From a virus: 23,419 nt of DNA. Below the pieces are notes generated by a model, which saw nothing but the letters and a program-made list of their open reading frames with translations, was not told where the DNA came from and ran no database searches. The first letter of the stretch is position 1. Each line of letters opens with the position of its first letter. Below, piece by piece: positions 9,279-23,200 of this stretch. The stretch spans positions 1 through 23,419 of the IMG/VR virus record IMGVR_UViG_3300021090_000671; one strand, 5' to 3'. Position numbers and translations under genes: made by a program.

Positions 9279-9320
9279 GGTTTCGATACGCTCCTTTCAG
9301 TCGCTACTCAACCCGAGTGG

Positions 9321-10667
9321 TTATTCTTCTTCCTTTGTGTCGCCTGGGTCTGTGCCTGGATCTTCCACTACTGCGGGTTGTTGTTCGGTGGGCTTCACAA
9401 GCGGCTTGCGCTTGATCTTGGGTACTTTGCTTTCATCCCAAACTTCGGCGAACATCTTGTAGACGAGCCTCATAAATTCTTTTGGCTCGATGGCTTCGCG
9501 GTCGTACATATCGGCGAGTTGTGGATAGGCTCGGCCTAATGCGAGCGCGAGTGTTGCATTGTCACGCTCGGTGATGTCGGGTCCTTCGACCCATATCTTC
9601 GCTTTTGGTTTGTCTTTGCCTGCGACCTTTGCGGCGACGCGTCCCATGTCGATCAACATTTCAAAAAAATCATTCTGTGTTTCTTCGAGTGTGCGGAAGG
9701 TCGGCGTGCCTGCGGCTTCGGCTGTGGTGCTGATTGCGCTTTCGCCTTCGGCGTGCCAGTGCATCGGCTGGCCTGCTCCATCCATGATCATTTTCTTGAT
9801 CGCTGTTCCGTCCATGCTTGCGTCGAAGGCGTCGAGGTTTGCGGACAGGATGCCGTATTTCTCTCCTGAGTTTTCGTTGAGTACGAGTAGGCTTCCTGGC
9901 TTGGGTGGGTTGGCGTTGAGATATTTCTCTCTGGCGCTTCGCTCGCTTTCGTTCGCATATAGTCCACTTACGACATACATGAATACGGTTCGGAATCTAT
10001 TGAGCCTGACCCGATCTTCGAGCCATGATGAAAACCGTCCTATCCATACCAGCAGCGGAGATAGGTCGGCTTCCCCCCAGGGGCTTCCTACGGGCTGGTT
10101 GCTGGCGAAGTGCATCATGAACGTGGTTTTATCTGTGCCGTCGCTGTAGGCGTTCCATTTGTCAGTTTTGGTTTCGTCCTTGAAGTAGCCTATTTCCTGT
10201 TCTACATCGTTTTCGGTTGTCTCGATATCCTCGATCTTCTCGGCCGGCGTAGCTCGGATGATGGTCATTCCATCGGCTTGCACATTGAACAGGAAGAATA
10301 GATTGCCGGTGCGGGTGTCCTCATCCTTCCAGCGTTTGACGTTGCGGTTGAATCGGTTGAGTGGATGGTTCCACCATTGGGTGAGGAAGTCCTGAAGCGC
10401 GGGGTCATCGCTTTTGATCGTGAGTCCCTTGCCAACGACAAAGGATGTCATGAGTTTGACAATTCGCCTGGCTATTGGATTGACGCGCCATGCGCGCATT
10501 GATTCCGCAAATACCTTTTTGCGATCCCATGCGCTGCGGCCTTCGTACAGGTTGGATAATCCGCCTGTGAAAAAATTATTATCCCGTTCGGGGCTGAGCG
10601 CGAGCGATGCTTCGAGCGCATCATTGAGCATAGAGATTTGGTTTTCGAGTTGTTTTTTAGTGGGCAT
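9321..10667 (-). CDS. Portal protein
   Basis: 448 residues. The protein has the layout of siphovirus/Mu-type portals: an N-terminal helical region, WRVNPIARRIVKLMTSFVVG (the conserved entry helix with N-P and R-I-V), a wing with WWNHPLNRFNR and GNLFFLFNVQADG, a stem and crown with MMHFASNQPVGSPWGEADLS, then IKKMIMDGAGQPMHW. The C-terminal tail is acidic and proline-rich (DPGTDPGDTKEEE). It forms the dodecameric ring through which TerL pumps DNA. ATG 10667 follows the lysozyme stop by three bases with AGGA upstream. The order TerL, lysozyme, portal, protease-capsid is standard apart from the inserted lysozyme. Confidence 0.88.
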   Translation of the reverse strand: MPTKKQLENQISMLNDALEASLALSPERDNNFFTGGLSNLYEGRSAWDRKKVFAESMRAWRVNPIARRIVKLMTSFVVGKGLTIKSDDPALQDFLTQWWNHPLNRFNRNVKRWKDEDTRTGNLFFLFNVQADGMTIIRATPAEKIEDIETTENDVEQEIGYFKDETKTDKWNAYSDGTDKTTFMMHFASNQPVGSPWGEADLSPLLVWIGRFSSWLEDRVRLNRFRTVFMYVVSGLYANESERSAREKYLNANPPKPGSLLVLNENSGEKYGILSANLDAFDASMDGTAIKKMIMDGAGQPMHWHAEGESAISTTAEAAGTPTFRTLEETQNDFFEMLIDMGRVAAKVAGKDKPKAKIWVEGPDITERDNATLALALGRAYPQLADMYDREAIEPKEFMRLVYKMFAEVWDESKVPKIKRKPLVKPTEQQPAVVEDPGTDPGDTKEEE

Positions 10668-17599: not shown

Positions 17600-17943
17600 A
17601 CTGCGGCGTCGAACCTGCCTGCGGGTGATGCGACGGCTTGGTTTTTGAGCATTACTTCCATTATGATCACTGCACAGTCTACCGAGTTGTAGAGTACGCC
17701 GCGTCCCTGGCTGACTAACAAGGGATGATCCATCTCGATGAGTGATGCGATGAGTAGGGCCATTGGAAGGAGTCGGCGTTTGGTTGCTATGGTGTGGTGG
17801 TGTGCGTAGTCGCCGTTACACCACGCTGTTCCTATCTCCTGGCGTTCTGCGATGGTGGTCACTTCCTTGCCGTGGTCGTCTATGTAGCATCTGATCACCT
17901 CGTCGTCGAGGGTATTGCTTTGGTTCTGTGGTTTGCGTGGCAT
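17575..17943 (-). CDS. Hypothetical early protein with start-associated leader
   Basis: 122 residues, ATG 17943 directly preceded by the shared leader AAGGAGAACCCTCACA and by a 12-bp hairpin. The N-terminus is polar (PRKPQNQSNTLDDEVIRCYI), the middle has ERQEIGTAWCNGDYAHHH and a hydrophobic helix LLPMALLIASLIEMDHPLLV, and the end is helical (VDCAVIIMEVMLKNQAVA). No motif is diagnostic; the HHH and Cys residues could bind a metal. Its control by the shared leader places it in the same translational set as five other early genes. Confidence 0.7.
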   Translation of the reverse strand: MPRKPQNQSNTLDDEVIRCYIDDHGKEVTTIAERQEIGTAWCNGDYAHHHTIATKRRLLPMALLIASLIEMDHPLLVSQGRGVLYNSVDCAVIIMEVMLKNQAVASPAGRFDAAVVERMEQP

Positions 17944-17987
17944 TGTGAGGGTTCTCCTTGCCCTCCGCCGGAGGACCGGCGGAGGGC
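17944..17987 (-). promoter_or_regulatory. Start-associated leader 1 with upstream hairpin
   Basis: On the minus strand a perfect 12-bp stem (GCCCTCCGCCGG with 4-base loop, 17960-17987) ends exactly where AAGGAGAACCCTCACA (17944-17959) begins, followed at once by ATG. No T run follows the stem, so it is not a terminator; the stem abuts the Shine-Dalgarno and could control ribosome access. Confidence 0.75.
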
Positions 17988-17994
17988 TGAATGC

Positions 17995-18154
17995 TTATGT
18001 CTCCCCGCGCGTGGGGGAGGACATAGCTCTTTGCTTCCGTTTTTTATAGCGGTTCTCATGTGTGGTGTTTTTATATTTCTTCGTTGGTATTGTGGTCTTG
18101 AATTCTTCACCACATCCGCAGGCGCATATTTTGGTTATCGGCTTTCGGCGCTTG
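17995..18154 (-). pseudogene. Zinc-ribbon-like C-terminal frame lacking its own start (probable frameshifted tail)
   Basis: The last 50 codons of this frame, KRRKPITKICACGCGEEFKT and on to HENRYKKRKQRAMSSPTRG, look like real protein: a C-x-C-G-C-x-x-x-F zinc-ribbon start followed by a basic stretch, as in small phage zinc-finger proteins whose second Cys pair is here absent. No ATG, GTG or TTG lies in a sensible place in this frame; further upstream the frame reads like a shadow (R/P/S-rich). It begins just where the frame of 18135-18395 ends and is -1 to it. So the two are probably one gene of about 135 residues broken by an indel, or joined by a frameshift. Confidence 0.5.
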
Positions 18155-18395
18155 CCAGTGAATTCGGCTCGTTCATGAAGCTGAGTAACGTGGCTATCGC
18201 TTCCTGCTTTGGGATGTTGACTTCTGGATCCGCCGTCTCTACGTGCTTGCATGGCGTCGGCGTCAACCATTCCCAGCCCTCGTTTCGGCAGGCTTTGCAC
18301 CACCAACGTTTGCGGGATCCGTCTGGCATATCCTCCCAAGCCATCAGCGCGGGGCTGGTGTGTGCTGCCTGCGCTTGGCTGATCGGATTGGACAA
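18135..18395 (-). CDS. Cys-rich hypothetical protein (probable N-terminal part of a frameshifted gene)
   Basis: 86 residues from TTG 18395, with GGTGG eight bases upstream; an in-frame ATG at 18344 would give 69 residues. The sequence SRKRWWCKACRNEGWEWLTP has a C-x-x-C knuckle with a further Cys-His (PCKHVETAD), which could bind zinc; the end is helical (PKQEAIATLLSFMNEPNSL). The frame stops at 18135 where a second open frame with CxCGC begins without a start. Joined, they would make a two-zinc-site protein, which is plausible for a regulator or a small nuclease-like protein. Confidence 0.55.
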   Translation of the reverse strand: MSNPISQAQAAHTSPALMAWEDMPDGSRKRWWCKACRNEGWEWLTPTPCKHVETADPEVNIPKQEAIATLLSFMNEPNSLASAESR

Positions 18396-18412
18396 GCGCG
18401 TCCACCAATCCT

Positions 18413-19174
18413 TTATTCGGGTTGAAAAGGGATTTTCGGCGCGTGCGCCTCATCCTTTGGGTCGTGGTACGTGGGTCCTGGCTTGGGGAATGGTTGTTCT
18501 GCGGTGGGGCGGGGGAGTTTCGAGAAGATCGGCTCTTTGCCTGTCAGATACGGGTATTGAAACGTTGTGGGATTGGCGGGGATGATCGGCATTCGAGAGT
18601 CTGCGAGGATGGGAATATCGAGGTCGCGTTTGACCTGGGCGATGATCTCGTTCCGCAATGTGATTGCGAGATTTACTTTCTCGGTATCTAGTGCTGCGGT
18701 TGCCTGTTTCCTTGCCTCGGTTACGATCTCACCGCGTGCTATGCCTACTTCGATCTTCTCGCTGATGTCGGGCGCGCTGCCGTGGTGGGCATAGATTAGG
18801 GCGGCTTGAAGAATTGTTGCGCCGATAAAGATATACACAATCCATTGAGCGATGCGTGCGGTCTGGTCTGGTGTCAGGGTTTGCCCGCTGAGTAGGACTT
18901 CGGCTGCTACCATGCCGAGTGTGCCGAGAAAACCTGCGAGGAAGCCGATGGCTGAGACTGCATATTGACCTGTGCTCTTTGAATGGAACACGAATGCAAG
19001 CGCCCAGGTTATCGCGGCAATGTCGAAAAGCACGAGTCCCCATATCTGGTTGCCGAAGTTGTTTGGGAAGATGCGTTGCATGGCCTGGTAGGTGAGCGAC
19101 ATTAGCAGGCCGATGATTGCGATGCCGAATGCGCCGAAGATGTAGGCTGTTGTTTGTGCTAATACTTTTTTCAT
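18413..19174 (-). CDS. Four-helix membrane protein with cytoplasmic tail
   Basis: 253 residues, ATG 19174 in ATGA overlap with the wHTH gene and preceded by the shared leader. Four hydrophobic helices lie at about 9-31, 45-64, 71-94 and 108-130 (for example IWGLVLFDIAAITWALAFVF and QYAVSAIGFLAGFLGTLG). The remaining 120 residues are a charged helix (SEKIEVGIARGEIVTEARKQ, TLRNEIIAQVKRDLD) and a proline-rich tail (PRPTAEQPFPKPGPTYHDPK), presumably cytoplasmic. Early phage membrane proteins often act in superinfection exclusion or anchor replication at the membrane; nothing in the sequence decides. No family is recognised. Confidence 0.75.
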   Translation of the reverse strand: MKKVLAQTTAYIFGAFGIAIIGLLMSLTYQAMQRIFPNNFGNQIWGLVLFDIAAITWALAFVFHSKSTGQYAVSAIGFLAGFLGTLGMVAAEVLLSGQTLTPDQTARIAQWIVYIFIGATILQAALIYAHHGSAPDISEKIEVGIARGEIVTEARKQATAALDTEKVNLAITLRNEIIAQVKRDLDIPILADSRMPIIPANPTTFQYPYLTGKEPIFSKLPRPTAEQPFPKPGPTYHDPKDEAHAPKIPFQPE

Positions 19175-19395
19175 GGTGTGAGGGTTCTCCTTATCATTTT
19201 ATAAATTCGGATGGGCACAGGTTTGCTCCTGATTCGCTTGATCACTCCCTGCGCTTCGAGTTGCAGGTAGTAGGATCTCACTAGGGACGAGGAGTTTATG
19301 CCTGTGATTGTTTGAACGGCTCGGATGGTTGGCGGGATGGCATTCTCCCGCCAATACTCCTTGATCGCCGTGAGGACTCTATCCGAGTTGGTCAT
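19171..19395 (-). CDS. LexA-type winged helix-turn-helix regulator without peptidase
   Basis: 74 residues, ATG 19395. The sequence DRVLTAIKEYWRENAIPPTI followed by RAVQTITGINSSSLVRSYYL and LEAQGVIKRI aligns in layout with the LexA N-terminal DNA-binding domain (helix, N-G/A-x-P-P-T-I-R, helix-turn-helix, L-E-x-x-G-x-I-x-R wing). The serine peptidase half of LexA is missing, so RecA-driven self-cleavage is impossible; it would act as a small repressor or anti-repressor. It is two genes from the divergent int promoter region and so could govern the int/early switch. The last codons (MIRRTLTP) are the shared leader of the next gene, read in frame. Confidence 0.7.
   Translation of the reverse strand: MTNSDRVLTAIKEYWRENAIPPTIRAVQTITGINSSSLVRSYYLQLEAQGVIKRIRSKPVPIRIYKMIRRTLTP
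19177..19192 (-). promoter_or_regulatory. Start-associated leader 2
   Basis: AAGGAGAACCCTCACA followed by CCATG of the membrane protein gene. This copy lies within the coding end of the wHTH gene. No upstream hairpin is seen. Confidence 0.75.
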
Positions 19396-19605
19396 TCACG
19401 CCACAACAAGCGCTGTGACCTGGTACTTCTGTTTTCCGCCTGGGATGGGGTTGGGGATTACCGAGATTGCCTGAGCGGTATTCAAGACTTCTTCGTGAGT
19501 GTTCACGACTTCCAATAGCTGCCCAACATAGCAGGGATTGTCTGACATCACCTTTATTGTTGTGTTGAGCTTCTGCGACCTTCCTGAATTCGAGTATGCT
19601 TGCAT
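19396..19605 (-). CDS. Hypothetical early protein
   Basis: 69 residues from ATG 19605 (MQAYSNSGRSQKLNTTIKVM), directly after the leader AAGGAGAACCCTCACA. An in-frame ATG at 19644 would translate the leader itself and lacks a ribosome site, so the shorter form is chosen. The protein is beta-rich (TIKVMSDNPCYVGQLLEVVN, QKYQVTALVVA) and unknown. It is the first gene of the leftward operon on this side of int, sharing the divergent intergenic region. Confidence 0.65.
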   Translation of the reverse strand: MQAYSNSGRSQKLNTTIKVMSDNPCYVGQLLEVVNTHEEVLNTAQAISVIPNPIPGGKQKYQVTALVVA

Positions 19606-19621
19606 TGTGAGGGTTCTCCTT
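19606..19621 (-). promoter_or_regulatory. Start-associated leader 3
   Basis: AAGGAGAACCCTCACA followed at once by ATG of the 69-residue gene. Upstream is AT-rich (CATTTTATCTC) with no clear hairpin. Confidence 0.75.
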
Positions 19622-19773
19622 TTGAGATAAAATGGATTTGACATCGGCTCGGTGGCGATTACCGTGAGGGTTCTCTACGCTGAGCCGGTGTTACGTTGCT
19701 CCCACATGTCCCGATGTGGGATGTTCAACAGGGCGGGGGAGGACTGCCCTGATCAAACCTATGGAGGTACATT
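19622..19773. promoter_or_regulatory. Divergent intergenic region between int and the leftward operon
   Basis: The gap holds a degenerate leader copy (minus-strand AGAGAACCCTCACG, 19663-19676) enclosed by CGGCTC at 19645-19650 and GAGCCG near 19681, but no gene follows it. Two further short stems lie toward int: CCCACAT/ATGTGGG at about 19701-19720 and CAGGGC/GCCCTG at about 19728-19750. They may shape the int leader mRNA or bind regulators. I cannot point to a convincing -35/-10 pair on either strand. Confidence 0.5.
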
Positions 19774-20607
19774 GTGAACAGGGAAAATGTGGAACGCTTT
19801 TTGGCGTCCCACTCATACGCGAAGAACACGCATGATCGGTATTTGCGGGTTCTCGGCTCTGCGTATGAGTTGCCTGTCGGTTGCTGGCAGGCGGTGGATC
19901 TGATCTCGTTCTGTGTTCGGCCTGAGTGGGGGAATTCACAACAACGGGTAGCGTTGTATGCTTTTCATAAATACATTCGTTGGAGGTGGGGGGATGATCA
20001 CGCGGCTTTGTCGGCTCGTATCAAGCAGGTCCGCCCGAAGATGCAGAGGGTCTTGTCTGCATCGAAGGCGTTGGAGTTGCTGGCCTCGTTTGATACGTCG
20101 ATGTCAGCTGGTGCGCGTGACCTGGCTATTTGTGCGGTGGCTCTGGATACGGGTTTGCGGTGTTCGGAGTTGTGCTCTCTCGCCCTGGCTGACGTGGATT
20201 TGCATCAAAGAACTTTGCAGGTCATCGTCAAAGGTGGGCAATGGGGGAGTGGGGTTTTCTCTCCACATACCGCGCAGTACATTGCTGAGTGGATCGCATT
20301 TCGCAAGCCCGCCGATGGAGTCGGCACGTTGTTTCTCTCGCTTCAAAACCAGCATAAGGGATGGGCGCTCACGCGCGAGGGTTTGCAGGGGATTGTCAAA
20401 CGGTGGGGGTTGCGGATTGGAATTCGATTGTCTCCCCATGATCTGCGGCGCTCGTTTGCGACACTTGCAACGATCTTCGGCGCGCCGTCTCGGATTGTCC
20501 AGCAGGCGGGCAGGTGGTCGAGCATTACAATGGTCGAGCTTTATACGCGCCGTCTGGATGCGTCGGCGATTGAGCCGTTTTTGCCTGTCTCGCATCTGGT
20601 GAAATAA
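19774..20607 (+). CDS. int: Tyrosine-recombinase integrase
   Basis: 277 residues, GTG 19774 with GGAGGT upstream. An N-terminal SAM-like core-binding domain (about 1-90, NRENVERFLASHSYAKNTHD) precedes the catalytic domain. The active residues are visible: Arg129 in ALDTGLRCSEL, Lys153 in VKGGQ, His222 and Arg225 in HDLRRSFAT, Trp248 in GRWSS (in place of the second His), and the nucleophile Tyr257 in VELYTRR. No arm-binding N-terminal domain is obvious, so it is a small, XerC/D-like size. It would join the attP at 20609-20654 to the host tRNA-His attB. It is the only rightward gene and converges on the xis cassette. The set of catalytic residues is complete. Confidence 0.93.
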   Translation: MNRENVERFLASHSYAKNTHDRYLRVLGSAYELPVGCWQAVDLISFCVRPEWGNSQQRVALYAFHKYIRWRWGDDHAALSARIKQVRPKMQRVLSASKALELLASFDTSMSAGARDLAICAVALDTGLRCSELCSLALADVDLHQRTLQVIVKGGQWGSGVFSPHTAQYIAEWIAFRKPADGVGTLFLSLQNQHKGWALTREGLQGIVKRWGLRIGIRLSPHDLRRSFATLATIFGAPSRIVQQAGRWSSITMVELYTRRLDASAIEPFLPVSHLVK

Positions 20608-20608
20608 G

Positions 20609-20654
20609 CAACATACAAGTAGATGTTGTGGGTTCGAGACCCATCAGGCACCCT
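20609..20654 (+). other. attP candidate containing the 3' end of a tRNA-His gene
   Basis: Twenty bases after int lies GTGGG TTCGAGA CCCAT, a perfect T arm (20628-20644), then the 3' acceptor strand CAGGCAC and C73 (20645-20652). Discriminator C73 after a GGCAC acceptor end with this T arm matches bacterial tRNA-His. There is no anticodon or D arm, so this is only the 3' fragment that an integrating element carries to restore the tRNA. Just before it, CAACAT and ATGTTG (20609-20614, 20623-20628) form an inverted repeat around 8 bases, possibly an Int core site. Confidence 0.8.
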
Positions 20655-20717
20655 AACTATTCGGTTGTAAAGGTACGGGCTTTCAGGTCTACCTTTCGGC
20701 TGAATGGTTCGCCGATC

Positions 20718-20754
20718 TCGCTCCTCATGTTCGCGCATGGGGAGCGATGGTTTT
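20718..20754 (+). terminator. Possible terminator of int
   Basis: TCGCTCC at 20718-20724 pairs with GGAGCGA at 20741-20747; inside, CATG pairs with CATG around a TTCGCG loop. On the plus strand TGGTTTTA follows, a short T run. This is a moderate intrinsic terminator placed about 110 bases after int, facing the convergent xis cassette. Confidence 0.45.
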
Positions 20755-20920
20755 ACGCAATATTGCGTTTGATCTTTCTAACTGCGTATCTTGAAGTGAT
20801 GACTTTGAATCCGTCTGCAAATTCGACAAGGATTGAGTTCATCTTTCCGCGTGCCAGTATTTTGCATGGTTGGCCTTTTCGATCTGGTAATCTGGATTTC
20901 CAAAACCATATGTGTGTCAT
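20753..20920 (-). CDS. Small phage protein of the RGKMNSxLVEFxDG type (55 aa)
   Basis: ATG 20920 overlaps the stop of the preceding small gene (ATGA); 55 codons to TAA at 20753. The product MTHIWFWKSRLPDRKGQPCK, then ILARGKMNSILVEFADGFKV and TSRYAVRK, looks like the small phage proteins with R-K-G-x-x-C-x-x-L-A-R-G-x-x-N-S-x-L-V-E-F-x-D-G-x-x-V-x-T-S-R, which have no assigned function as far as I know. It ends the cassette nearest the attachment site. The pattern is distinctive and the composition natural, so I trust it despite its size. Confidence 0.75.
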   Translation of the reverse strand: MTHIWFWKSRLPDRKGQPCKILARGKMNSILVEFADGFKVITSRYAVRKIKRNIA

Positions 20921-21096
20921 TTGGGATTGAGTCCTGCTATTACAAAGACGATCACAACAAAGAAAAGGATAATTGCAGTTTCATCATTCTCGGCCTGGCC
21001 GATTTCTCGGGTTCGTTCGTTCGCCAAGTATGCGGTCAATTTCTGCCAATGGGATGCGATAAACGCTCTTGCTATTTGGGTCCATCTTGTAAGCAT
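20917..21096 (-). CDS. Tiny membrane protein overlapping xis out of frame (59 aa)
   Basis: ATG 21096, GAGG about ten bases upstream, 59 codons to TGA 20917, which overlaps the next gene's ATG. The first 37 codons lie inside the xis-like gene in the +1 frame; the rest is beyond it. The protein is an amphipathic N-terminus (MLTRWTQIARAFIASHWQKL), a charged link TREIGQAENDE and one hydrophobic helix TAIILFFVVIVFVIAGL. Both overlapping frames read as natural protein in the shared part. The ATGA overlap with the next gene supports translation. A start at TTG inside (LANERTREIG) would give a shorter, 36-residue form with only a limited overlap. Confidence 0.5.
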   Translation of the reverse strand: MLTRWTQIARAFIASHWQKLTAYLANERTREIGQAENDETAIILFFVVIVFVIAGLNPK

Positions 21097-21190
21097 GGAT
21101 GGTGCCTCGATCTATCATGCGTCTGATTGTGCGCGCTGAGACTTTGAGTTTCTCGGCGGCTTCTTCGGTGGTAAGGGTGGTGTCGCTCAT
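20984..21190 (-). CDS. xis: Excisionase-like HTH protein
   Basis: 68 residues, ATG 21190 in ATGA overlap with the gene before. The sequence TLTTEEAAEKLKVSARTIRR, MIDRGTIHAYKMDPNS, then VYRIPLAEIDRILGE is the HTH_17 / excisionase family pattern: helix-turn-helix of MerR type, G-x-I-x-A-x-K wing, and RIP-x-x-E-I-x-x-x-L. Such proteins serve as recombination directionality factors or as regulators. Its place next to attP and facing int makes an excisionase role likely. It lies in a cassette with its own consensus promoter, so its expression could be switched separately from int. Confidence 0.8.
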   Translation of the reverse strand: MSDTTLTTEEAAEKLKVSARTIRRMIDRGTIHAYKMDPNSKSVYRIPLAEIDRILGERTNPRNRPGRE

Positions 21191-21372
21191 TTGATCTCGA
21201 CTGTATCCGTTGCGATGGCTTCGGCCAGGGTGTTGATCTGGTCGTCGTAACGGCCGTCATAATCGAATTGTGTCAGTTCCTTGTACATGATCTTGATCAG
21301 GTCTTTGAGCGCAAGTCTGACATTGAGCTGCCTTAGCTGATCGACCTTTGAGAATGTTTGTTCTGGTTCCAT
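21187..21372 (-). CDS. Hypothetical protein, first gene of the xis cassette
   Basis: 61 residues, ATG 21372. No Shine-Dalgarno is present; the ATG lies about seven bases after a consensus -10, so the mRNA should start at or very near the ATG (leaderless). The product is helical and acidic (PEQTFSKVDQLRQLNVRLAL, KDLIKIMYKELTQFDYDGRY, then DQINTLAEAIATDTVEIK). No family is recognised. Its stop overlaps the xis start, so leaderless translation would also set xis expression. Confidence 0.7.
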   Translation of the reverse strand: MEPEQTFSKVDQLRQLNVRLALKDLIKIMYKELTQFDYDGRYDDQINTLAEAIATDTVEIK

Positions 21373-21378
21373 GTGTAG

Positions 21379-21407
21379 ATTTTACTCGGTCAGTTGGGAC
21401 GTGTCAA
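21379..21407 (-). promoter_or_regulatory. Sigma-70-type promoter of the xis cassette
   Basis: On the minus strand TTGACA (21402-21407, full consensus) is separated by exactly 17 bases from TAAAAT (21379-21384, five of six). The start site, about seven bases on, falls at the ATG of the next gene. This is the best promoter in the window. Confidence 0.85.
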
Positions 21408-21582
21408 GTGTTTGGGGAAAGTCGTGGGGGAGTCGTCGGGTTTCCTGTCCGTGGGTGGGAGTGGACCGGTAATGGGGAGGTGGTCGGGCGGAGTCAAACC
21501 CAAACCCAAAAGCAAAACCGAATCCCTCCCCGCTGGACACGAAGTGCGAGCCGACAGGCTCGACGCGATTTTTGGAATTTGG
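21408..21582. other. Intergenic stretch with strand-biased composition
   Basis: No credible gene is seen. The plus strand is G-rich to about 21490 (GTGGGGGAG, GTGGGTGGGAG, TGGGGAGG) and then C/A-rich (AAACCCAAACCC, CCCTCCCC), so the far ends could pair. CGAGCC/GGCTCG at 21547-21562 followed by a T run at 21569-21573 might be a weak rightward terminator. Upstream activator sites for the promoter at 21379-21407 could also lie here. Confidence 0.4.
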
Positions 21583-21612
21583 ATAAAAACAGCCCGCATT
21601 TCTGCGGGCTGT
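21583..21612 (-). terminator. Intrinsic terminator of the right-hand operon
   Basis: A perfect 10-bp stem (ACAGCCCGCA / TGCGGGCTGT) with a 4-base loop is followed on the minus strand by TTTTTAT. It lies about 20 bases past the stop of the gene at 21633 and separates the right operon from the xis cassette promoter. Confidence 0.9.
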
Positions 21613-21632
21613 GGATCCTGGCTGGTGTGGCT

Positions 21633-22124
21633 TTATCCTTCCGGCGTTGGCGGCTTTGTGTTGCCCGCTATGATCTCTTTCGATACGTATCCGTCAACGT
21701 TTGGATATTCCGGTGCTGTCGGTGATATTCTCAATACTTCCTGCTTTCTGTGCTCGCCTATGTAGATGATGATCTTCTTCCCTATCACTTCGCCGATTGT
21801 CTCGGCTTTGGTCGCCTCCATCAGGCTCGCTACGTCTACCTGGGTGGAAAGAAGATAACCGCGCGGGAATGGGGCGCCGGTCTTGGTTTGGAAGTATAGA
21901 ACGGGCTGCACTATTACGCGCGGTTTTCCGTTTGGGTTCCTGCTGTCGGCCGTGGCTGAGTCAAGGTCTTTGGGGTTGGGTATCGTATCTTCGGGGGCAA
22001 TACGCGCAATGGTGACGGCGAGTTGCTGCACATGCCAGCGGACTTTTAGATCCTCCACTTTCAAAAAGCGCGAGGGGTGCAGGTCCATAAGTGGAGTTTT
22101 GGGGTCGTAGGTTTGAGTGGTCAT
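21633..22124 (-). CDS. Early protein resembling phage GK-I-x-LY family proteins
   Basis: 163 residues from ATG 22124 after the shared leader; a longer frame upstream runs through the leader hairpin and is rejected. The sequence LHPSRFLKVEDLKVRWHVQQ, then VIVQPVLYFQTKTGAPFPRG, TIGEVIGKKIIIYIGEH follows a pattern common in phage early proteins near recombination or single-strand DNA-binding genes: H-P-S-x-x-L-K-x-x-D-L, a V-L-x-F strand, and G-K-x-I-x-x-Y. The function of that group is not known to me; an OB-fold or DNA-metabolism role is a guess. It is the last gene before the terminator. Confidence 0.65.
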   Translation of the reverse strand: MTTQTYDPKTPLMDLHPSRFLKVEDLKVRWHVQQLAVTIARIAPEDTIPNPKDLDSATADSRNPNGKPRVIVQPVLYFQTKTGAPFPRGYLLSTQVDVASLMEATKAETIGEVIGKKIIIYIGEHRKQEVLRISPTAPEYPNVDGYVSKEIIAGNTKPPTPEG

Positions 22125-22125
22125 T

Positions 22126-22162
22126 TGTGAGGGTTCCTTTTGCCCGTGACAAGGCGACGGGC
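22126..22162 (-). promoter_or_regulatory. Start-associated leader 5 with upstream hairpin
   Basis: AAAAGGAACCCTCACA precedes AATG. The stem GCCCGT/ACGGGC (22142-22162, 9-base loop) abuts the AAAAGG. The stem sequence has nothing in common with those at leaders 1 and 7, while its position is the same. Confidence 0.7.
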
Positions 22163-22182
22163 GGCGCGCATAGTGGAGTGGT

Positions 22183-22410
22183 TTATAGTCCTGGGTCGGC
22201 GTCGCTAAATTCGTCGAATTCCTGGGTATAGGTGGATTCTTCGTCGTCGTCGGTGAGCTTCCACCAACGATCACAGCAAACATCCTGCTCGTAGTAATTG
22301 CCGTCTAGGTCATATCGTCCCATGTATATATGACCTTTCACGGTGTTTGTGTTTCCTACCTGCTGCTCATCGAGGTTGGCAGGTTTCTTGCATTTGACTA
22401 GTTTTTGCAT
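22183..22410 (-). CDS. Acidic hypothetical early protein
   Basis: 75 residues, ATG 22410 after the shared leader. The N-terminus is basic (MQKLVKCKKPANLDEQQVGN), the middle aromatic (GHIYMGRYDLDGNYYEQDVC, CDRWWKLTDDDEESTYTQEF) and the C-terminus very acidic (DEFSDADPGL). The acidic, aromatic composition recalls small phage DNA-mimic or inhibitor proteins, but that is only a hint. No family is recognised. Confidence 0.65.
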   Translation of the reverse strand: MQKLVKCKKPANLDEQQVGNTNTVKGHIYMGRYDLDGNYYEQDVCCDRWWKLTDDDEESTYTQEFDEFSDADPGL

Positions 22411-22427
22411 TGTGAGGGTTCCTTTCT
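22411..22427 (-). promoter_or_regulatory. Start-associated leader 6
   Basis: AGAAAGGAACCCTCACA followed directly by ATG of the acidic protein. Upstream is CCAGACCCA without a clear stem; a TATAAT nearby (about 22437-22442) overlaps the previous stop and has no -35, so it is not taken as a promoter. Confidence 0.7.
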
Positions 22428-22437
22428 TGGGTCTGGA

Positions 22438-22671
22438 TTATACACAAAAGAATTTACGCGGGCTGGCTTCGTTTGATTCAAGCCAGCAATCAAAGGCGGC
22501 TCTGTCTCGCTTTTCGAGTTCATCCATCAGCCAGCCGCGGACGGTCGGCAATATGTCGCTCATGGGTTGTTTCTCGGCTTCTTCCCAATCTGCTATGAGT
22601 TCGTAGGTCGTTCGCTCGGCGACCATTGCGCGGGCTTTGGTTTCGGATGGGTGCATGGGTTGGGTGTTCAT
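22438..22671 (-). CDS. Hypothetical helical early protein
   Basis: 77 residues, ATG 22671 with GGAGG upstream, overlapping the preceding stop (ATGA). The protein is helical and acidic (ETKARAMVAERTTYELIADW, EEAEKQPMSDILPTVRGWLM, DELEKRDRAAFDCWLES). It resembles many small phage proteins with a W-L-M-D-E-L-E-K-R-D segment; no function is known to me. It uses an ordinary Shine-Dalgarno, not the shared leader, although its neighbours on either side use the leader. Confidence 0.65.
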   Translation of the reverse strand: MNTQPMHPSETKARAMVAERTTYELIADWEEAEKQPMSDILPTVRGWLMDELEKRDRAAFDCWLESNEASPRKFFCV

Positions 22672-22874
22672 TTCGCCTCCGTAAGTGTTGCTAGTTGTGC
22701 GATGATTTCGCGCTGTGTGAGTTTCAGTTGGTCATGCTTTTCAAAGTCAAGGCCGCAGGTTGTGATTTCTCGGCGCGTGGTGTCGAGTGCGATGATCAAC
22801 TGTTCGCGCTGTGCCTGGCGTGCCTGGGCTGCCTGGCTGACGCTGGCTTTCCAATTCTGGCGGCGCTCAGTCAT
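22668..22874 (-). CDS. Hypothetical coiled-coil protein
   Basis: 68 residues, ATG 22874 in ATGA overlap with the gene before and its stop in ATGA overlap with the gene after. The sequence is one long charged helix (NWKASVSQAAQARQAQREQL, then DQLKLTQREIIAQLATLTEA), so a coiled-coil dimer is likely. No motif is diagnostic. Overlaps on both sides support translation. Confidence 0.6.
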   Translation of the reverse strand: MTERRQNWKASVSQAAQARQAQREQLIIALDTTRREITTCGLDFEKHDQLKLTQREIIAQLATLTEAK

Positions 22875-23158
22875 TGCACACTCTGATACTGGATAAACTC
22901 AAGGCTGGCCGGGTTGCTGATTTTCGGCGCGCCGAAGGATTGCAACACTTCGCCGTTGGCGTATTTGAGCGCCACATTTTGAACGTCTTTGAATTGGATT
23001 CGGATGGTGAATAATGAGCCGTGTAAACGCACTTCCAGCCACTGCGTTTGACTATTAGCTTCGATCACTTCACACTCGCGCCAAAAGCCGAGAATGAGAG
23101 CGCGGCACATGAGCGAGATCTGACCTTTACCTTCGGGGGGGATATTGAGGAATAACAT
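22871..23158 (-). CDS. Hypothetical early protein with leader
   Basis: 95 residues from ATG 23158 (MLFLNIPPEGKGQISLMCRA), right after the shared leader; the in-frame extension upstream would translate the leader as RRTLT and is rejected. The sequence has beta strands (QWLEVRLHGSLFTIRIQFKD) and a C-terminal EVLQSFGAPKISNPASLEFI. It looks like a small beta-rich domain. Unknown function. It is the first gene after the SLOG-like gene at the right edge, with a 63-bp spacer that holds two hairpins. Confidence 0.65.
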   Translation of the reverse strand: MLFLNIPPEGKGQISLMCRALILGFWRECEVIEANSQTQWLEVRLHGSLFTIRIQFKDVQNVALKYANGEVLQSFGAPKISNPASLEFIQYQSVQ

Positions 23159-23188
23159 TGTGAGGGTTCTCCTTGTGGCTTGCGCCAC
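23159..23188 (-). promoter_or_regulatory. Start-associated leader 7 with GCAA-capped hairpin
   Basis: AAGGAGAACCCTCACA precedes ATG 23158. Immediately upstream on the minus strand GTGGC-GCAA-GCCAC (23175-23188) forms a 5-bp stem with a GNRA tetraloop that abuts the Shine-Dalgarno. Confidence 0.75.
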
Positions 23189-23200
23189 TATGTAATTTGA

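Follow-up and report, generated by a model that had tools for sequence, protein, structure and literature searches.

Antisense RNAs of temperate phages and their satellites, such as the P4 CI RNA and the P22 sar RNA, control early or antirepressor expression, and the stoperators of mycobacteriophage L5 are dispersed, oriented and phage-specific DNA sites for a protein repressor. The C4 antisense RNA of phages P1 and P7 has complementary sequence, probably in loops, that pairs around the ribosome-binding site (Citron and Schuster 1990, summarised in PMC12197685). It acts on one mRNA, that of ant, and small differences lead to heteroimmunity (PMC12197685). In Cluster K mycobacteriophages, a short, asymmetric, conserved start-associated sequence (SAS) that includes the Shine-Dalgarno (SD) sequence stands, always oriented the same way, directly ahead of many non-structural genes; its consensus is GGGATAGGAGCCC, and about half of the copies, the ESAS subset, have 17-bp inverted repeats upstream (PMC3203893). 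Here we analyse the IMG/VR virus record IMGVR_UViG_3300021090_000671, positions 1-23,419, the whole of which is called the window below. It carries a conserved leader directly before six early genes and, upstream of its integrase gene, a predicted structured RNA with a first stem-loop (SL1) that very probably acts on these leaders as an antisense RNA.

As in C4, a loop, that of SL1, is complementary to the ribosome-binding region of phage mRNA, over 10-12 nt in the six leaders. Unlike C4 with its single ant mRNA, the SL1 loop fits the starts of as many as six separate genes, and SL1 is encoded at another place in the genome, divergently upstream of the integrase gene, in phages of Chloroflexota, and has no Rfam match. 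By analogy, the antisense RNA would work like the C4 RNA of P1 and P7 but with many targets, and cmscan does not place it in the C4 Rfam family. The P4 CI and P22 sar RNAs have one or two targets within a single transcript, whereas here a set of many gene starts co-evolves. The leaders resemble L5 stoperators in being many dispersed, oriented, phage-specific sites that could serve immunity as a set, but stoperators are DNA bound by a protein repressor, and the evidence here is for RNA-RNA pairing at ribosome-binding sites. The likeness to Cluster K drawn in the initial annotation of this DNA holds as an analogy (PMC3203893): a conserved short sequence directly precedes non-structural starts, at six of six in 17.9-23.2 kb, but the consensus differs, the window leaders being AAGGAGAACCCTCACA and the Cluster K SAS (GGGATAGGAGCCC) belonging to actinobacterial phages. 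The Cluster K SAS has no assigned factor, whereas here a putative cognate RNA is identified.

Results

The six leaders are on the minus strand, 0-2 nt ahead of the ATG codons at 17943, 19174, 19605, 22124, 22410 and 23158. Their positions, and the energies of the duplexes predicted with the SL1 loop, are as follows.

17944-17959, minus strand: leader a, target, before gene 17943-17575; duplex -25.4 kcal/mol
19175-19192, minus strand: leader b, target, before membrane-protein gene 19174-18413; duplex -25.4 kcal/mol
19606-19621, minus strand: leader c, target, before gene 19605-19396, the divergent neighbour of the RNA gene; duplex -25.6 kcal/mol
22125-22141, minus strand: leader d (short form), target, before gene 22124-21633; duplex -20.6 kcal/mol
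22411-22425, minus strand: leader e (short form), target, before gene 22410-22183; duplex -20.8 kcal/mol
23159-23174, minus strand: leader f, target, before gene 23158-22871; duplex -25.4 kcal/mol

Four copies on the minus strand match the leader AAGGAGAACCCTCACA exactly (17944-17959, 19177-19192, 19606-19621 and 23159-23174), and a form with two bases fewer, AAAGGAACCCTCACA, precedes 22124 and 22410 on the same strand. The spacing varies slightly, with CC between CACA and the ATG at 19174 and one extra A at 22124. When up to three mismatches were allowed, five matches were found in the window, compared with a mean of 0.17 and a maximum of 1 in shuffled sequences. The four exact and two short copies bear out the earlier claim of six leaders directly before early-gene starts. 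There are six exact copies of ACCCTCACA in the window, and each precedes one of the six leader-gene ATGs. The structural genes (1-17 kb) have ordinary ribosome-binding sites, and the capsid gene (8976) has only AAGGAGAACCTAATG, in agreement with the partial likeness described before.

A degenerate copy without a gene, tagagaaccctcacg, is present at 19663-19676, as had been reported. Both in this copy and in the short forms some GGAG bases are lost and GAACCCTCAC is retained. The SD part thus varies more than GAACCCTCAC, which agrees with the initial annotation that conservation extends past the SD sequence. Because the SD bases vary while GAACCCTCAC stays, the pattern indicates that the leader is not conserved mainly for ribosome binding. 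An ordinary ribosome-binding site with a conserved spacer was ruled out on the same grounds and by the gene-less copy, which has no start.

The helix-turn-helix (HTH) gene at 19395 starts where gene c stops and may be controlled by coupling to gene c. The AlphaFold model of target protein d was poor (mean predicted local distance difference test score 48.6) and was not used. Palindromes or hairpins occur just upstream of several leaders, at 17960-17990, 23175-23190 and 22142-22165 in the window and also in relatives L111 and L115. They include CCCTCCGCCGG/CCGGCGGAGGG, GTGGC/GCCAC and CCCGT/ACGGG, with GACACGTGTC and GGCACGTGCC in the relatives; a comparison among the leaders gave no common consensus, and some targets are without a palindrome.

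The opposite strand of the gene-less copy lies in the loop of SL1, within the following features between the promoter-like box and the integrase gene.

19628-19633, plus strand: -10 box TAAAAT, predicted promoter of the antisense RNA or integrase transcript; TANAAT-type box in relatives
19639-19693, plus strand: SL1, with a 16-bp stem (19639-19654 and 19678-19693) and a 23-nt loop (19655-19677), based on fold z score, covariation and G.U/A.C counts
19664-19675, plus strand: anti-leader GTGAGGGTTCTC in the SL1 loop, the opposite strand of the degenerate copy
19699-19721, plus strand: SL2 hairpin CTCCCACATGTCCCGATGTGGGA, a predicted fold; a GTCCCGA-type loop is found on a different stem in several relatives
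19729-19751, plus strand: SL3 hairpin CAGGGC...GCCCTG, a predicted fold just 5' of the integrase ribosome-binding site
19774-20607, plus strand: tyrosine integrase gene, downstream of the RNA (Pfam Phage_integrase, E 3.9e-26)

The SL1 stem begins 5 nt past the -10 box TAAAAT. The loop carries GUGAGGGUUCUC, the complement of the leader sequence GAGAACCCUCAC, which reaches from the SD sequence to just before the start codon. The complementarity is contiguous over 12 bases for leaders a, b, c and f and over 10 bases for d and e, and apart from the six leaders no stretch of the window complements the loop by 10 nt or more. Duplex energies with the loop range from -20.6 to -25.6 kcal/mol for the six leaders, compared with -6.9 to -16.6 kcal/mol for fifteen other starts. 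On the integrase strand the leader RNA of the integrase folds with -64.6 kcal/mol (z = -5.52), and the opposite strand gives z = -2.07. The RNA matched no Rfam family, and a cmscan search of window 19590-19800 and L169 9790-10010 at E values up to 5 listed no C4 model.

Hairpins of the form CAGGC-GGGGG-GCCTG recur before the integrase ribosome-binding site in many relatives (L166-L195; compare SL3). Just past the integrase stop, at 20628-20655 of the window, a sequence resembling a tRNA 3' end, GTGGGTTCGAGACCCATCAGGCACC, is likely the attP core.

A search with the capsid protein gave 75 relatives among viral contigs. Further relatives were found in prophages, mostly in genomes of Anaerolineae and other Chloroflexota, so the host is probably in this group, and the phage appears to be a temperate phage of Anaerolineae-type bacteria. 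More loci were collected by a search with the integrase family, and in total about 33 related phage loci (given by G or L numbers) have the SL1 anatomy. The window-type integrase was found in none of 29 genomes with homologous capsids. When 396 class members were searched, one prophage with the antisense RNA was found, inside an Anaerolineae genome; its arrangement is as in the window, with the loop GTCGCAGGTCC opposite the leader GGACTTGCGAC and one G.U pair.

In six of the leader-bearing phages a gene-less leader copy is situated within an inverted repeat, beside the integrase gene or in the corresponding place. The anatomy on the integrase strand is the same in most loci: a -10 box, the stem-loop SL1, and a loop with the complement of the phage's own leader. 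In nearly all of the 33 loci a TANAAT-type box (TAAAAT in 18) precedes the SL1 stem by 5-9 nt. Across 29 phages, each of the stem positions 1-14 is paired in 93-100% and shows 3-4 Watson-Crick types. On the integrase strand G.U exceeds A.C in the stem by 56:3, with 25 phages leaning this way and none the other; the search scored both kinds of pair alike, and the phages are related, so that the p-value is only indicative. As G.U far exceeds A.C there, the integrase strand is the predicted RNA strand.

The RNA is not always next to an integrase gene. SL1 occurs in G003 without an adjacent integrase, and therefore the RNA is probably useful by itself; the window-family integrase was not found in the G003 or G010 contigs, both of which may be incomplete. 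It was also not found in G018, which was added by a hairpin scan. In L186 and L188 the SL1 adjacent to the integrase matches little, and a second SL1 500-700 nt upstream matches gene starts by 12-14 nt. Copies of SL1 are in tandem in L189 (~9295-9360 and 9821-9880), both with the loop GGTCTTCGTGGTTGATCTCC and with unrelated stems. The SL1 region of L174 is present twice in inverted orientation (~2076 and 5535), which is probably an assembly artefact.

Leader and loop sequences fall into dialects across the relatives, including AACCCTCAC, AATCCAGCA, GTCTAGC and others. In close relatives the leader precedes several small genes and is either dialect A, that of the window (G001, G003, G004 and G008), or dialect B, GGAGAA[AT]CCAGCA (G005, G009 and G010). 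In most phages the loop carries the complement of the leader, for example GTGGTAGGGACTCC in L169, GTGACTATTCTCC in L185, GTGATAAGTTTCC in L174 and GCTAGACTCC in G020. The initial annotation had tied its proposal to the presence of the motif in relatives; these do keep the system, but their leaders differ, each being fitted to the RNA loop of its own phage.

Gene f has the dialect A leader in the window and in its G008 orthologue, and dialect B in the orthologues of G005, G009 and G010. G003 (dialect A) and G010 (dialect B) share 75% identity in the membrane-protein gene. The terminase of G003 groups with those of the dialect B phages (85-91% identity), yet its leaders are of dialect A. The SL1 stems of G003 and G010 are near-identical and the loops differ, each fitting its own leaders. 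As the leaders of orthologous genes differ from phage to phage and the terminase and leader of G003 disagree, the comparison indicates that the leader is a property of the phage and not of the gene, and that it changes in concert. Among the protein families common to leader-bearing phages (excisionase-like, d and the 14844 gene), none was seen to track the dialect. A small hairpin inside the leader (AGG/CCT) was rejected, as it is not kept in dialect B.

Matches of at least 10 nt to the phage's own loop were found at 48 gene starts, a few of which are alternative frames of a single site; they come from 23 phages, and 17 phages have two or more; the expectation from loops of other dialects is 2.0, and reversed loops gave 0. 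A geometry-only hairpin scan of all fetched loci, some of which overlap, yielded 81 hairpins, 36 with a start match compared with 1 for reversed loops. The mean leader duplex energy is -20.9 kcal/mol with the own loop and -11.1 kcal/mol with those of other dialects, the own loop being best in 19 of 22 cases; this matrix is partly biased, because targets of the L-numbered phages were picked by loop match, and the start-match, hairpin-scan and window-complement tests are fairer.

Other sequences were seen in the relatives. A short dispersed repeat, CCTGTCTGC or CTGCCTGTG, occurs in L117/L118 (G010) and L108 (G003), with up to 28 copies in G010. In L089, a more distant relative, a CCCGTACGGAGGTGA-like sequence stands ahead of four start codons and is possibly another start-associated sequence. 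A 9-mer start-motif scan of more distant prophages gave mostly ordinary SD words.

Discussion

The evidence strongly favors a phage antisense RNA, with its promoter -10 box at 19628, that blocks translation of the six early genes. The sequence itself shows the structure and strand of the RNA, the promoter-like box, the complementarity and the co-change; we infer that the RNA is transcribed, that it represses its targets instead of activating them, and that it serves lysogeny or immunity. The structured RNA would be transcribed from a sigma-70-type promoter (-10 box 19628) toward the integrase gene, either as the 5' leader of the integrase mRNA or as a separate small RNA. Its SL1 loop GUGAGGGUUCUC would pair with 10-12 contiguous bases of the leaders, covering the SD sequence and spacer, and with the ribosome-binding site covered, initiation would stop on all six early mRNAs at once. 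The early lytic genes would probably be held down while the integrase side is expressed, during establishment or maintenance of lysogeny. That loop and leaders change together into phage-specific dialects would be expected, because the RNA must match its targets. The initial annotation had offered two candidates for a factor that controls early translation jointly, an RNA-binding protein and a small RNA; the opposite strand of the gene-less copy strongly supports the small RNA, and no support was found for the protein.

Several observations weigh against this antisense model. In G001, G005 and L171 the SD part and the specific part are separated by one mismatched base. L176, with another type of upstream region, shows no SL1, and in L167, L192 and L086 the stem-loop is there without a start match of at least 8 nt. 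The stem of L182 begins 22 nt past the -10 box. Most loci were collected via the integrase and thus do not form an integrase-independent sample.

The leaders and the gene-less copy could instead be DNA sites of a phage repressor, similar to L5 stoperators, with the inverted repeat as an operator at the integrase promoter. The sites are asymmetric, in a single orientation and phage-specific, as immunity-specific operators are; one copy is 30 nt downstream of the promoter box, and a LexA-like HTH gene is among the targets. However, that HTH gene is not common to all the phages, the stem around the loop is free in sequence, and the excess of G.U over A.C (56:3) together with stem covariation are signatures at the RNA level that double-stranded DNA sites do not need, which makes this explanation very unlikely. 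The direction of control could also be the reverse, the early mRNA leaders binding the integrase leader RNA as a sponge and thereby controlling the expression of integrase or the stability of RNA, while early translation would be little affected. SL1 does head the integrase transcript in most phages, and several leaders could titrate it, but the match always spans the SD sequence to the start of early genes, as a translational repressor requires, and G003 has SL1 without an adjacent integrase; we consider this arrangement less probable again.

That the leaders are remnants of recombination or duplication (mobile ribosome-binding site cassettes), or a spacer preferred by the host, without a factor acting in trans, would fit their position at gene starts and the variable gene content of the relatives. 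This is in the main refuted by the co-change of loop and leader: orthologues carry different leaders in different phages, each fitting that phage's loop, and the short forms and gene-less copy drop SD bases and retain the rest. We regard it as exceedingly improbable.

In most phages the antisense RNA would be on the same transcript as the integrase, and its synthesis would therefore coincide with the setting up of lysogeny; if the RNA persists, it would confer dialect-specific immunity. A more tentative proposal, to which we give somewhat less than even weight, is that this RNA, and no protein repressor, is the immunity determinant of the phage group and silences the early set in lysogens. The dialects would then be immunity groups, and switching would proceed by concerted changes in one loop and several ribosome-binding sites. 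In the literature searched, coverage of which is incomplete, no earlier account of such an RNA in these phages was found.

An antisense RNA may also be behind the Cluster K SAS. A conserved 385-bp intergenic region of Anaya, matched in 177 mycobacteriophage records, contains one SAS copy in reverse orientation. A possible hairpin GCGCGG-CCTCCTATCC-CCGCGC with an anti-SAS loop is present in Anaya, Ganymede, Niklas and Guanica15 and, slightly changed, in Amelie. The candidate loop of Anaya is CCUCCUAUCC; the reverse-oriented SAS inside this short G+C hairpin is at L208 34872-34883, corresponding to 59871-59882 of the Anaya record, and the feature is also in L210, L211, L213 and L217. Because the candidate hairpin was not found in Pixie, Keshu, Hammy, Yuna and Shandong1, it is only a lead.

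For the phage group studied here, the antisense RNA would explain the start-associated leaders, and it offers a concrete hypothesis for the unexplained Cluster K SAS. The phage antisense repressors known so far mostly act on one or two targets; here one loop appears fitted to up to six ribosome-binding sites. In about 30 phages the loop and its targets seem to have co-evolved into many dialects, a natural record of specificity switching between RNAs. If immunity is set by the RNA, the system would be an RNA counterpart of the repressor and stoperator system.

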